In this document: one piece after another, positions 2,454 to 38,507 of the stretch
Layout: each line of letters starts with the position of its first letter
Position numbering within the stretch: the first letter of the stretch is position 1
Assembly (NCBI GenBank): GCA_016278265.1
Contig: JADQCE010000003.1
Coordinates: 248,001 to 312,000, forward strand
Direction of reading: 5' to 3'
DNA: 64,000 nt
DNA from: Halothiobacillus sp.
Lineage (GTDB): Bacteria; Pseudomonadota; Gammaproteobacteria; Halothiobacillales; Halothiobacillaceae
Translations under genes and position numbers: made by a program
Notes under the pieces: model-generated
Told to the model about the DNA's origin: nothing
Seen by the model: the letters and a program-made list of their open reading frames with translations, nothing else
Database searches by the model: none

Positions 2454-3194
2454 TCAGTAGCCCTTCTGCTTGAGCCAGGTTTCGACTTCCTCGCTGCCAC
2501 CGACGCGCTGACCGTCGACGTAGACCTGCGGGACCGTTTCGGTCTGGGCCACGGCACGCAGGGCGCGCAGCTCGACGTCTTCACCGACCACGATCTCGTC
2601 GAACTCCAGCCCCGCGTCGTGCAGCATGCCCTTGGCGCGCGCGCAGAACGGGCAGCCCTTGCGTGAGAACATCATGATCGAGTGTGGCTTCTTGGCGTTC
2701 GGCGCCAGCCAGTCGAGCATGGTGTCGGCATCGGAGACCTCGTAGGGGTCGCCCGGCTTCTCCGGCTCGATGAACATCTTCTCGATGGTGCCGTCCTTGA
2801 CCAGCATGGAGTAGCGCCAGGAGCGCTTGCCGAAACCGAGGTCGTCCTTGTCGACCAGCATGCCCATGCCGTCGGTGAAGTCGCCGTTGCCGTCCGGGAT
2901 GAAGCGGATGCGATCGGCATCCTGGTCCACGGCCCACTCGTTCATGACGAAGGCATCGTTGACCGAGAGGCAGACGATCTCGTCGACGCCGTGCTTCTTG
3001 AATACCGGCGCCAGCTCGTTGAAGCGCGGCACGTGGCTCGAGGAGCAGGTCGGGGTGAATGCGCCCGGCAGCGAGAAGACGGCGACGGTCTTGCCCTTGA
3101 AGATCTCGTCGGTGGTCACGTCGACCCAGTCATGGTTCTGACGGGTGCGGAAGGTGACGTTGGGTACCTTCTGGCCTTCACGATTCTCCAGCAT
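2454..3194 (-). CDS. Peroxiredoxin-glutaredoxin fusion (hybrid Prx5/Grx)
   Basis: This 246-residue protein is a glutathione-dependent peroxidase. Its N-terminal peroxiredoxin-5 domain reduces hydroperoxides and its C-terminal glutaredoxin domain recycles it. The peroxidatic cysteine lies in [16 protein letters not shown] (Cys50). The glutaredoxin motif is CPFC (Cys181 and Cys184), followed by TVPQVYVDG, the cis-proline loop. The architecture matches the Haemophilus-type hybrid Prx. An AGGAG ribosome-binding site lies just upstream of the ATG at 3192-3194. The next gene on the same strand is glutathione reductase, which supplies the electron donor. A candidate OxyR-type site lies in the upstream intergenic region at 3410-3446. 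Confidence 0.93.
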
Positions 3195-17203: not shown

Positions 17204-17278
17204 TCGACCGGCTCGGTGCGGCCTTCGCTCCGGCTGCCGCCCGATCGGTTCGCATGGATTGTTTTCCGGTGAATCGTC

Positions 17279-17547
17279 AAGGAACCTCTGTGCAAATAGC
17301 CAACGCCTCTGCGGATCGCCAGGCGTCCAGATGCAAGGCGCAGCGCGCCGCGCAATGGCTATGGTCATTGGCAAGCGCTGCAACGCCGCAGGTGGGCGCC
17401 TGGCGGTCCGCCCGATGGGGCTTGCCGGCTTGCCCGCCCTCGGCGTTACCGATTCTCGCCGGGCAACGAGCCCGCCTTCGGATCGGTGCCTTGATGGCGA
17501 ACAAGCCGGCAAGCCAGAGGCATTGGCTATTCGCGCAGAGGTTCCTT
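17279..17547 (-). repeat. Inverted-repeat element, copy A (about 265 bp)
   Basis: The 458-bp gap between iscR and ndk is mostly filled by this element. Its ends are 31-bp imperfect inverted repeats with 3 mismatches, beginning GGAACCTCTG at 17281 and ending CAGAGGTTCC at 17545. Inside, a perfect 14-bp stem pairs 17419-17432 with 17502-17515, and a 9-bp stem pairs 17317-17325 with 17397-17405. Its reverse complement aligns along its whole length with copy B at 37728-37995. It encodes no credible protein. It could be a MITE-like non-autonomous element or a structured RNA. Flanking TCAA and TTAA are only weakly like a target duplication. Confidence 0.8.
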
Positions 17548-17661
17548 AAACTATCGCGCTTTGCTGTCGCTCGCCTTCGGTGAGCGACAGCTTCCTGTTT
17601 CCGTTTTCTTTTTCACGTTTCACCGGGGCGGTCCGATCCCGCCCGATCAGGAGATAACTTC

Positions 17662-28861: not shown

Positions 28862-28878
28862 GGGAACCTCTGAACGAA

Positions 28879-29268
28879 TCAGGGCAGCTCGACTTTCGGC
28901 GCCGGCGTCCAACCGTCCTGGCGATGTTCGACCACCACGTTGGTCCAGATGCCGCCGCGCACGTTCCAGCGGCCGGTCAGGCGCAGGAAGCGCGGGTTGA
29001 TCGCGGCCACGATGTCGTCGGCGATGCGGTTGGTCATCGCCTCGTGAAAGCCGCCTTCCTCGCGGAACGACCACATGTACATCTTCAGCGACTTGAGCTC
29101 GACGCATAGCTGGTCCGGCACGAAGTCGATCAGGATGGTGGCGAAGTCCGGCTGGCCGGTCTTGGGGCACAGGCAGGTGAACTCGGGCACCTCCATGTGA
29201 ATGGTATAGTCCCGTTCCGGATGCGGGTTGGGGAAGGTTTCGAGTGTCTTGTTGGGTTGCGTCGACAT
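28879..29268 (-). CDS. queF: NADPH-dependent 7-cyano-7-deazaguanine reductase QueF (short type)
   Basis: This 129-residue unimodular QueF reduces preQ0 to preQ1 in queuosine synthesis. The catalytic motif is [15 protein letters not shown], with Cys34 as the likely nucleophile and Asp41 the general acid. The NADPH-binding region is [20 protein letters not shown]. It is the short Bacillus-type form rather than the long bimodular E. coli form. No preQ1 riboswitch is visible upstream. The product feeds Tgt, encoded at 9.3 kb. Confidence 0.95.
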
Positions 29269-36492: not shown

Positions 36493-37677
36493 ATGGGGTC
36501 ATCTCGCCCCGGATTGCCGCCGAGGTGCCGATTGGATATCCGACTAGTCACGGAAACCTTCCCGCCCGATATCAACGGGGTAGCCACGACGCTGGGTTGC
36601 CTGGTCGCGGGCCTGCGCGACCGAGGCCACCGGGTGGTGATCACCTGCCCGAAGGCTGCGTTTCGCCGCGATCTGGGCGAGGGCGCCGAGGTGCGCGGGG
36701 TGGCGCTGCCGTTCTACCGTGAGGTCCGTTTTGGCCTGCCGCGGCGCCGTGCGTTCCTCGCCGAGTGGCGCGAGGATCCGCCGGATGTGGTGCACATCGC
36801 CACCGAAGGGCCGTTGGGTGCCTCGGCGCTGGCCGCTGCCCGCGCCCTGGATTTGCCGGTCACGACGTCGCTGCACACCAACTTCCACGCCTACGCGCGG
36901 GCCTATCGGCTCAGGTGGCTTGCCCGGCCGGTGATGGGCTACCTGCGACGTTTCCACAATCGCGCGGCGAACACCTTCATTCCCACGGCGAAGCAGGCCG
37001 CGGAGCTCGAGGCTAGCGGTTTCGAGCGTCTGATGGTGCTGGGACGGGGGGTCGATACCGACCTGTTCGCACCGGTGCGGCGCGACCCCGACCTCCGCGC
37101 CTCCTGGGGTGCGGGCGACGAGACACCGGTATTGCTGCACGTCGGCCGGCTGGCCGCCGAGAAGAATCTCGATCTGCTGGCGCAGGCCTGGTCACGTGCT
37201 CGCGACATCAACCCGGACGTGCGCATGGTGGTCGTCGGCGACGGGCCGCAACGCGTGCGGCTGGAACGGCAGCTGCCGGGCGCGGTCTTCGCCGGGGCGC
37301 TGCGCGGTGAGGCGCTGGCCCGGTACTACGCCTCGGCGGATGCGTTCCTGTTCCCCAGCCTCACCGAGACCTTCGGCATCGTGGTGCTGGAGGCCATGGC
37401 CAGCGGGCTTGATTGCCTGGCCTTCGATTACGCCGCCGGTCGACAGCTGATCGAGTCGGGCGTGAATGGCTTGTTGGCGCCGGTCGGGGAGCCGACGGCC
37501 TTTCTCGACCACGTGCCTGAGCTGCTGGTCGAAGGGTCGCGCGCTCGGCGTGAACGTGCCCGTAACTCCGGCACGCATTATGGCTGGGCGGCGGTCGTTG
37601 ATGGCTTCGAGCGGAACCTGGTCGAGGTGGTCGAGCGCGCCCAACGGGGTATGCAGCCGCAGGAGGGGTGGGCGTGA
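36493..37677 (+). CDS. Glycosyltransferase family 4 (possible alpha-mannosyltransferase)
   Basis: This 394-residue GT-B enzyme begins IRLVTETFPPDINGVATTL, the nucleotide-sugar glycosyltransferase start. It carries LHVGRLAAEKNLDLL and the C-terminal EX7E region PSLTETFGIVVLEAMASG. It resembles GDP-mannose-dependent mannosyltransferases, but donor and acceptor are unproven. A TTG at 36532 preceded by GAGGTG is an alternative start that would remove 13 residues lacking family similarity. The stop overlaps the GTG start of the PAP2 gene (GTGA), which suggests joint function in lipid or glycolipid metabolism. Confidence 0.82.
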   Translation: MGSSRPGLPPRCRLDIRLVTETFPPDINGVATTLGCLVAGLRDRGHRVVITCPKAAFRRDLGEGAEVRGVALPFYREVRFGLPRRRAFLAEWREDPPDVVHIATEGPLGASALAAARALDLPVTTSLHTNFHAYARAYRLRWLARPVMGYLRRFHNRAANTFIPTAKQAAELEASGFERLMVLGRGVDTDLFAPVRRDPDLRASWGAGDETPVLLHVGRLAAEKNLDLLAQAWSRARDINPDVRMVVVGDGPQRVRLERQLPGAVFAGALRGEALARYYASADAFLFPSLTETFGIVVLEAMASGLDCLAFDYAAGRQLIESGVNGLLAPVGEPTAFLDHVPELLVEGSRARRERARNSGTHYGWAAVVDGFERNLVEVVERAQRGMQPQEGWA

Positions 37678-38507
37678 GCCTGTTGCGCCCCGACACGCTG
37701 GCCGCCGTTCGGTGGTCGCGAGCCGAAGGGAAACTCTGCACGATTCGATGGCATCTCTGGCTCGCGGGTTTGTTTGCAATCAAGGCGTCGGACCGAAGAC
37801 GGGCTCGTTGCCCGTCGAGGGACGGCAACGCCGAGTGCGGGCAAACCCGCGAGCCCCGTCTGGGCGGGCCGCCAAGGGCCCATCTGCGGCGTTGCAGCCC
37901 TTGTAAAGGGCGACGACCCTTCACGGCGGACTGCGCCTTGCATCTGGGCCCTTGGCGGTCCCGCAGAGACGCTATCGAATCGTGCAGAGCTTCCCTAGGT
38001 GCCTATCTCGCGTGGGAGGCGCTGGTGACCGAGCGCTGCAATCGCGCTCACCGAGTCATGGCGTTGCGCGCCTTGTTCGCGACCGCGTCGAGGCTTGGCG
38101 ACGGTCTGGGCTGGTATGTGCTGGCGCTCCTGATGCTTGTGCTGCATGGGGCGTCGGCCGTGTTGCCCATGGCGCTGATGATCGGCTCCGGTGGGGCGGG
38201 CGTGCTGATCTACCTGACGATCAAGCGCCGCACGGCCCGGCTGCGCCCCCTGAATCGCAATGGTCGACTCGAGACCAGTGTTGCGCCCCTTGATCAGTAC
38301 AGCTTCCCCTCCGGCCACACCCTGCACGCGGTCAACTTCGGCATTCAGCTGGTGGTCTTCCAGCCCGCGCTGATCTGGATCGTCCTGCCGTTCGCCCTGC
38401 TGGTCGCCACCTCCCGCATGGTGCTTGGCCTCCACTACCTCTCCGATGTGTTGGTGGGCGCTGCGATCGGTGCCGCGATCGCGCTCATCAGTTTCTCCGT
38501 GCTTTGA
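37674..38507 (+). CDS. PAP2-family phosphatase with a repeat element near its 5' end
   Basis: The C-terminal two-thirds is a PAP2 membrane phosphatase: RLGDGLGWYVLALLMLVLHG, the active-site motif KRRTARLRP, PSGHT, and SRMVLGLHYLSD, with several membrane spans. The GTG at 37674 overlaps the upstream gene's stop and follows GGAGGGG, so this is the natural start. After about 18 codons the frame enters repeat element copy B and stays open for about 90 Arg/Pro/Cys-rich codons before rejoining the expected WEALVTERCNRAHR segment. The product is either an enlarged protein or one made from an internal start (possibly ATG at about 38059). Function is uncertain. Confidence 0.7.
   Translation: MSLLRPDTLAAVRWSRAEGKLCTIRWHLWLAGLFAIKASDRRRARCPSRDGNAECGQTREPRLGGPPRAHLRRCSPCKGRRPFTADCALHLGPWRSRRDAIESCRASLGAYLAWEALVTERCNRAHRVMALRALFATASRLGDGLGWYVLALLMLVLHGASAVLPMALMIGSGGAGVLIYLTIKRRTARLRPLNRNGRLETSVAPLDQYSFPSGHTLHAVNFGIQLVVFQPALIWIVLPFALLVATSRMVLGLHYLSDVLVGAAIGAAIALISFSVL
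37728..37995 (+). repeat. Inverted-repeat element, copy B (268 bp)
   Basis: Second copy of the element at 17279-17547, in the opposite orientation. Its termini are 25-bp inverted repeats with 2 mismatches (GGGAAACTCTGCACG at the left; the right end reads CAGAGCTTCCC). A perfect 14-bp stem pairs 37759-37772 with 37842-37855. Another perfect 14-bp stem pairs 37869-37882 with 37945-37958. Conserved unpaired or short-stem blocks shared with copy A include GGGCTCGTTGCCCG, GGCGTTGCAG and TGCGCCTTGCATCTGG. It lies inside the 5' part of the PAP2 gene. Confidence 0.85.

Follow-up and report, generated by a model that had tools for sequence, protein, structure and literature searches.

Two copies of a double-hairpin element

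The window, by which we mean the whole 64,000-nucleotide stretch of DNA analysed, carries two related elements in opposite orientation. Element A occupies positions 17281-17545 on the plus strand (265 bp, H1-first orientation), and element B occupies positions 37729-37994 on the minus strand (266 bp; the plus strand reads H2 first). The preliminary description had assigned them to one repeat family of about 265 bp with terminal inverted repeats of 25-31 bp, and the present boundaries, with terminal stems of 30 bp, bear this out. Each element consists of a 30-bp basal stem formed by the terminal repeats, a hairpin H1, a short linker and a hairpin H2. The two hairpins are homologous modules in opposite orientation, H1 being read on the top strand and H2 on the bottom strand. 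The module core reads CAAGGCG...CAACGCC, with an AA bulge 5' and an AAC bulge 3' of a GGC:GCC mini-helix. Twenty aligned modules, drawn from the genus of the host genome, from Halothiobacillus and from three other genomes, agree without exception at CAAGGCG, at CAAC, at the C two bases beyond CAAC and at three single positions in between. The linker carries a CCC-NNN-GGG mini-hairpin or a near variant of it. Across the 64-kb window, a covariance model of the module matched these four modules, two weaker antisense readings of them and one further site at E 0.45, and nothing else.

In element A, the left terminal repeat (17281-17310, plus strand) is followed by H1 (17311-17411, plus strand; model match 17316-17405, E 1.8e-21; core CAAGGCG...CAACGCCG). 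The central mini-hairpin CCC-GAT-GGG (17411-17419) overlaps H1 and H2 by its outermost bases, and H2, a module of the same kind on the minus strand (17419-17515; match 17424-17511, E 6.9e-16), leads to the right terminal repeat (17516-17545, minus strand). Within the left terminal repeat, the outer 18 bp or so are mostly conserved in sequence, the next eight pairs are variable and mostly paired, and the junction CTCT is conserved. The flanks are TCAA (17277-17280) and TTAA (17546-17549); the empty site in sister genomes reads GTTAAAC, which accounts for both, TCAA being one change away from TTAA. Site A lies in a stretch upstream of ndk (17250-17290), where the empty sequence GGATTGTT...TCGTTAAACTAT is conserved in seven aligned sister genomes; this stretch is promoter-like in appearance and is split by the insertion in three genomes. 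Elsewhere in the window, a lone match to the terminal-repeat end (GGAACCTCTGAACGAAT) was seen at 28863-28879, with no adjoining hairpin module found.

Element B lies within a PAP2-family gene (37668-38507), into which it is inserted about 20 codons from the start with the frame staying open. It encodes a 90-residue in-frame insert that is absent from the orthologue in a sister genome (G006), and the proteins measure 279 and 189 residues, respectively. On the plus strand, the terminal repeat adjoining H2 (37729-37758) precedes H2 itself (37759-37855; match 37763-37850, E 1.6e-15). On the minus strand lie H1 (37864-37964; match 37870-37958, E 1.8e-23) and the terminal repeat adjoining it (37965-37994). 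The flanks, GAAG (37725-37728) and CTAG (37995-37998), form an imperfect duplication.

Folding of these sequences as RNA gave energies of -190 to -194 kcal/mol for both strands of A and for the H1-first strand of B. The corresponding z-scores were -14.1 for the plus strand of A, -12.8 for its minus strand, -13.7 for its plus strand folded as DNA and -14.1 for the minus strand of B, and in each of the four tests none of 200 shuffles was as stable as the element. The earlier claim of covarying stems holds exactly for the H2 stem, in which GGCTTGCCGGCTTG/CAAGCCGGCAAGCC of A corresponds to GGCTCGCGGGTTTG/CAAACCCGCGAGCC of B with three changes per side, all compensated; a second stem and a small apical hairpin likewise differ in sequence between A and B and retain their pairing. 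Chance palindromes are ruled out by the fold z-scores, together with the covariation and the linker-motif controls given below. A known Rfam RNA was also excluded as the identity of the element, since the copy A region gave five matches that all fell far below the gathering score, and 15 other loci gave none at E <= 0.05.

Insertion sites and the search for a mobilising enzyme

The genome from which the window comes (2.73 Mb, 99.96% complete) holds 26 places that match copy B over at least 240 of its 270 bases, so that the resemblance of A and B is no two-copy coincidence. The terminal-repeat pattern occurs there at 71 ends, many of them paired about 249 bases apart, versus none in a reversed control. 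Matches were found in 16 of 56 other genomes: nine of the ten remaining genomes of the genus, the exception being G003 (64% complete), four genomes of the same family and three of other families (G040, G041 and G047), the last with partial matches to the module core. The element is quasi-palindromic, and a MAFFT alignment of 224 profile matches therefore mixed both orientations.

Of 147 insertions from the host genus and Halothiobacillus, 146 had ends that could be placed. Identical 4-bp flanks were present in 39 of the 146, compared with 10.6 +/- 2.9 after shuffling (none of 2000 shuffles had as many). Exact YTAR words stand at 61 left and 57 right flanks, CTAG being the commonest flank (35 left, 29 right). 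In 58 insertions the body measures 266 bp. Site A is filled in the host genome, G006 and G009 and empty in G001, G002, G004, G005, G007, G008 and G010, whereas site B is filled solely in the host genome and empty in G001, G002, G004, G005, G006, G007, G009 and G010; the genomes aligned were those other than G003 at both sites and G008 at site B. Insertion is precise and duplicates 4 bp of mostly YTAR-like target, and the element has been mobile since the Guyparkeria species split. Its features are those of a miniature inverted-repeat transposable element (MITE): terminal inverted repeats and small size, target duplication and precise empty sites (the duplication of B being imperfect), and no transposase coding capacity in only about 266 bp. 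The flanks of these 146 insertions also agree with the YTAR target of IS5-group MITEs.

Precise insertion, the duplications and the conserved outer ends speak for a DDE-type transposase acting in trans, which would recognise the outer 18 bp or so of the terminal repeats in a lineage-specific manner. IS5 prefers YTAR targets, and we take the GGAA..CTCTGCAC ends and the YTAR target of the present element to resemble those of the IS5 group. The IS5-like transposase with the same ends that had been suggested beforehand was not found: profile searches detected PF13586 in none and PF01609 in one of the 11 genus genomes (seven of them at least 90% complete), the latter with other ends. That single PF01609 transposase, in the host genome itself, was rejected as the partner, given that, by inspection, the inverted repeats around it (L187:1493-1526 and 3029-3062) bear no relation to the present element. 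In a single-contig genome (G148), each of the 22 forward terminal-repeat matches has a reverse partner 246-247 bases on, two extra reverse matches carry 2 and 3 mismatches, and no larger element is bounded by the family's terminal repeats at up to 3 mismatches. Among the matches listed for four draft genomes, close terminal-repeat pairs are 49 to 315 bases apart, and many matches are single or at contig ends. A plasmid-borne insertion sequence with the same ends was rejected as well: one 35-base terminal repeat used as query went unmatched, and a second terminal repeat gave two matches at E ~4 inside unrelated genes. Searching with the whole element gave further copies and one 41-bp terminal match, read as a truncated copy. 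Phage carriage was rejected on two queries only, one exact H1-type pattern with no exact match in viral contigs, and the Azotobacter element with one weak 38-base match in phages.

A related autonomous element with the same ends was thus absent from the genomes searched, which is no proof of its non-existence; the missing partner may reflect loss, transient supply or an enzyme without these ends. The absence would suit a structure-specific recombinase, of the HUH/tyrosine or integron-integrase type and recognising hairpins with extrahelical bases, in place of a DDE transposase, and so would the inverted pair of imperfect hairpins, the conserved bulges and the free stem sequence. However, target duplications of 4 bp and outer terminal repeats conserved in sequence are, to our knowledge, not expected of IS200/IS605-type or integron recombination, and we consider such a recombinase improbable.

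Spread beyond the genus and relation to known systems

The covariance model was built from a seed (A1) of 20 hairpins, namely 18 of 28 plus the two of L088. The ten dropped comprised five chance matches (L077, L169, L184, L205 and L209), L207 with an insert, and four real hairpins (one each of L002, L029, L080 and L124). With E-values that are rough owing to a shortened calibration, and with at most 11 candidates scored per genome, the model matched at E <= 1e-4 in 114 of 369 genomes and 87 of 271 genera of Gammaproteobacteria, 107 of the genomes remaining after removal of those of the host genus and of the seed. In a draw from the whole phylum, which overlaps the former so that the counts are not additive, 85 of 398 genomes matched at the same threshold, and 48 of the 85 belong to other classes. 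Among the carriers are plasmids of Azotobacter chroococcum, Pseudomonas aeruginosa and Halomonas.

Independently of the model, 37 of the 54 best-scoring loci fetched from outside the genus have a convergent second module (E <= 0.001 and 0.01). A CCCN2-4GGG motif lies in the linker of 36 of these 37 two-module loci, versus a mean of 2.5 and a maximum of 9 in mononucleotide shuffles, and in 2 of 111 control windows, a few of which were over-long near contig ends and could only raise the control count. Terminal repeats were recognised in 23 of 27 loci of one set, at 264-274 bp from outer end to outer end (some including the duplicated CTAG). A further set had them at 17 of 21 loci, 14 of these at 259-281 bp and three, with a single hairpin, at 160-171 bp. 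These terminal sequences are of many types that show no obvious resemblance to one another, and several carry CTAG at their ends. Elements of the same architecture but with unrelated terminal repeats therefore occur both across Gammaproteobacteria and in further classes of the phylum.

The terminal repeats appear to have been swapped many times with the hairpin core retained, and with the terminal repeats changed, the transposase presumably changed too. Alternatively, one enzyme class might recognise the fold itself, that is, the opposed bulged hairpins, the basal stem and the central mini-hairpin, and not the terminal sequence. We regard this as unlikely; if true, it would free the terminal repeats to change between lineages, explain why no element with matching ends turned up alongside the recent bursts, and amount to a structure-addressed transposition system spread over Proteobacteria.

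Several relatives with other ends or a single hairpin were noted. On Azotobacter chroococcum plasmid pAcX50e (L333:6220-6385), a different terminal-repeat type, GAGGCTGTGAAAAAACTC, surrounds a seemingly related single-hairpin core. Single-hairpin relatives also occur in other genomes (L235:1-300, L318, L323, L328 and L330; about 160-171 bp for L318, L323 and L328), and the ends of several of this group, as we take them, recall IS5. A Comamonas plasmid (L304:2486-2574), from a betaproteobacterium, carries a single module between ruvA and a trypsin-like peptidase gene, with no evident terminal repeats.

No description of this repeat family was found in the full-text literature searched, outside which most subscription journals and preprints lie. 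Some repeats of Pseudomonas fluorescens, such as the 177-bp R6 and the 320-bp R200, could be relatives (PMC2718517). The family resembles bacterial MITEs in size, terminal inverted repeats, short target duplication, many copies, absence of a gene and a stable fold. By the account in the available part of PMC10969869, type II MITEs have only their terminal repeats in common with the parent insertion sequence; in contrast, it is here the body that stays conserved from genus to genus, with changing ends, and no autonomous partner was found in the genomes searched. The inverted pair of imperfect palindromes is shared with REPINs and REP sequences moved by RAYTs, and compensatory changes are on record for the REPIN spacer hairpin (PMC3116915 and PMC3733652, in the parts available). 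Unlike REPINs, the present element measures about 266 bp and has its hairpins flanked by terminal repeats and 4-bp duplications. The GTAG tag at the foot of REPIN and REP hairpins is absent by inspection, a TCTG/TCAG-type junction standing at the hairpin base instead.

Integron attC sites have conserved extrahelical bases, and conserved unpaired bases are common to them and the present family. As the accessible portion of PMC8946536 describes them, attC sites also have little sequence conservation and an imperfect palindrome foldable as a single strand. Unlike attC, each element here has two opposed modules and a target duplication. Rickettsia palindromic elements are palindromic and can sit in frame within genes, as copy B does; unlike them, the present element is larger, with two modules and with terminal repeats accompanied by duplication. 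They are named in the available parts of PMC10969869 and PMC3733652. QMITE1 and QMITE2 of Coxiella are likewise very stable palindromic MITE families of a gammaproteobacterium; the part of PMC5896051 available reports no orthologues of QMITE1 in other genomes, whereas the present family occurs in many. Our best reading is that this structured, MITE-like superfamily is new.

Base pairing, its history and the proposed mechanism

Covariation was measured on 17 diverged copies of 266-272 bp, taken from 19 chosen among 116 with L024 and L029 left out, so that the counts lean toward intact elements. Standard pairing was found in 90.8% of pair cells, and double changes at 60 of 109 pairs. The covariation score was 0.406, compared with 0.176 +/- 0.008 for shuffled partners (none of 500 as high) and at most 0.097 for slid partners; in the 20 aligned modules it was 0.612, versus 0.206 +/- 0.017 for shuffled and at most 0.124 for slid partners. 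The structure was taken from one aligned sequence in both sets, a choice that biases the comparison towards it and against the slid versions. In the terminal stem, the outer 18 pairs have few variable pairs, the commonest type averaging 14.3 of the 17 copies. The next eight pairs vary: their commonest type occurs in 5 to 10 of 17 copies, and 12 of their 135 cells are unpaired. At the junction, CTCT is again shared by 16 of the 17 copies.

The fate of pairs was followed at shared insertions (15 groups with 34 members, one comparison per group). These gave 93 changed paired positions, 81 single and 12 double. Of the single changes, 35 were still paired and 46 broken; of the double changes, 10 were paired and 2 broken. 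Pair-preserving doubles thus make up 10 of 93 changed pairs, versus 25%, 35% and 39% between non-orthologous copies in identity bands of 0.88-0.96, 0.80-0.88 and 0.70-0.80 (240, 531 and 713 comparisons, which are not independent). Counting single and double changes together, pairing is kept at 48% of the changed pairs of shared insertions, versus 60%, 65% and 59% in the same bands; for the most part, shared insertions also resemble one another more closely than do the copies set against them. We read the pair changes at shared insertions as drift. Given that shared insertions lose pairs readily and copies at different sites keep more, pairing would be maintained mainly in lineages that go on to move, and a host function of resident copies was rejected on the same loss of pairs. 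The earlier interpretation accordingly stands in part: a constraint on the structure is supported by covariation, invariant bulges and the same architecture with different sequence in many genera, whereas the IS5-like partner was not found. The constraint is seen in the propagating lineage, and resident copies lose pairs. Broken stems in further copies had been named beforehand as counting against selection; stems do break, but in place after insertion.

As 10 of the 12 double changes at shared insertions preserve the pair, repair or conversion in place likely contributes. Such changes would also be seen in an ordinary MITE derived from an insertion sequence, whose pairing is kept by template switching or gene conversion between copies and whose fold is unselected; terminal repeats with a YTAR-like duplication fit this account, as does the near-equality of G.T and A.C in the terminal stems (122 vs 136). 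However, correction should erase the AA and AAC bulges, the GA/GA mismatches of H1, the A.G mismatch of H2 and the fixed wobbles, all of which are conserved. Furthermore, length, linker motif and module order are kept in unrelated lineages, and broken pairs accumulate at shared insertions (46 of 81 single changes). We therefore judge an unselected fold to be quite unlikely.

Strand preference was assessed from the counts of G.T and A.C on the canonical strand, only in those hairpins in which 9 or more of the 18 pairs are Watson-Crick, a filter that misses badly decayed hairpins. G.T exceeds A.C in H1 of the host's own family (113 vs 35; 118 hairpins), in H2 on the opposite strand (144 vs 23; 80 hairpins) and in other genomes (77 vs 16; 53 hairpins). 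The excess comes mostly from wobble pairs at a few conserved positions, 7 to 10 from the core. With the motif positions set aside, a set picked after the counts were seen, the ratios become 25:24 and 15:20 in the host genus and 22:9 in other genomes. The inner stem leans to G.T too (102:21, 30:4 and 21:3). Since the two modules lie on opposite strands, each strand of the element carries one canonical module, which fits a symmetric DNA element with a hairpin per end and equally a bidirectional RNA element.

The G.T excess in both hairpins and in other genomes would be expected of an RNA-level function, such as a site of processing, protection or antitermination by which insertions become tolerable; such a function is compatible with a transposase in trans. 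Transcription from either side meets a terminal repeat and then a canonical hairpin, so that the action would be the same in both orientations. The in-frame insertion of B points the same way, as does a stop-free frame, at least one, in 111 of 122 own-family copies, a count without a shuffle control; taken singly, the frames are open in 15 to 76 copies, versus 11 to 13 in mononucleotide shuffles. Outside the genus, the three-base central loops are TNC or GNA in 30 of 35 cases, which on one strand we take to be the UNCG tetraloop pattern. A stable central loop is, however, expected in DNA and RNA alike, and the same loops presumably form stable GNA triloops in DNA. Against an RNA function also stand the equality of G.T and A.C in the host genus away from the motif positions, the lack of G.T preference among new pairs at shared insertions (20 vs 18) and the lack of a matching family in Rfam. 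An RNA-level role is thus rather unlikely in our view.

On balance, we favour the reading, at a probability of roughly 60%, that A and B are miniature, non-coding, MITE-like mobile elements with a conserved fold, moved in trans by a putative transposase, and that the fold is read during propagation. In this model, the hairpin pair, with one canonical module per strand, would be recognised in a folded form, more likely extruded or single-stranded DNA than RNA, and such recognition would select the copies still able to fold. With its shape conserved across genera while stems and terminal repeats are rewritten, the family would represent a mobile element kept by shape. The module covariance model is ready for annotating a widespread repeat, and structure-addressed bacterial transposition, with the enzyme responsible, becomes directly testable.

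Some copies depart from the standard layout. An apparent extra palindromic insert lies within H1 of L013/L021 (G000:C6, ~85.5 kb), L011/L026 and L028. In L015, L020 and L241, one hairpin is wholly or mostly missing, with a deletion near the hairpin base that resembles replication slippage.
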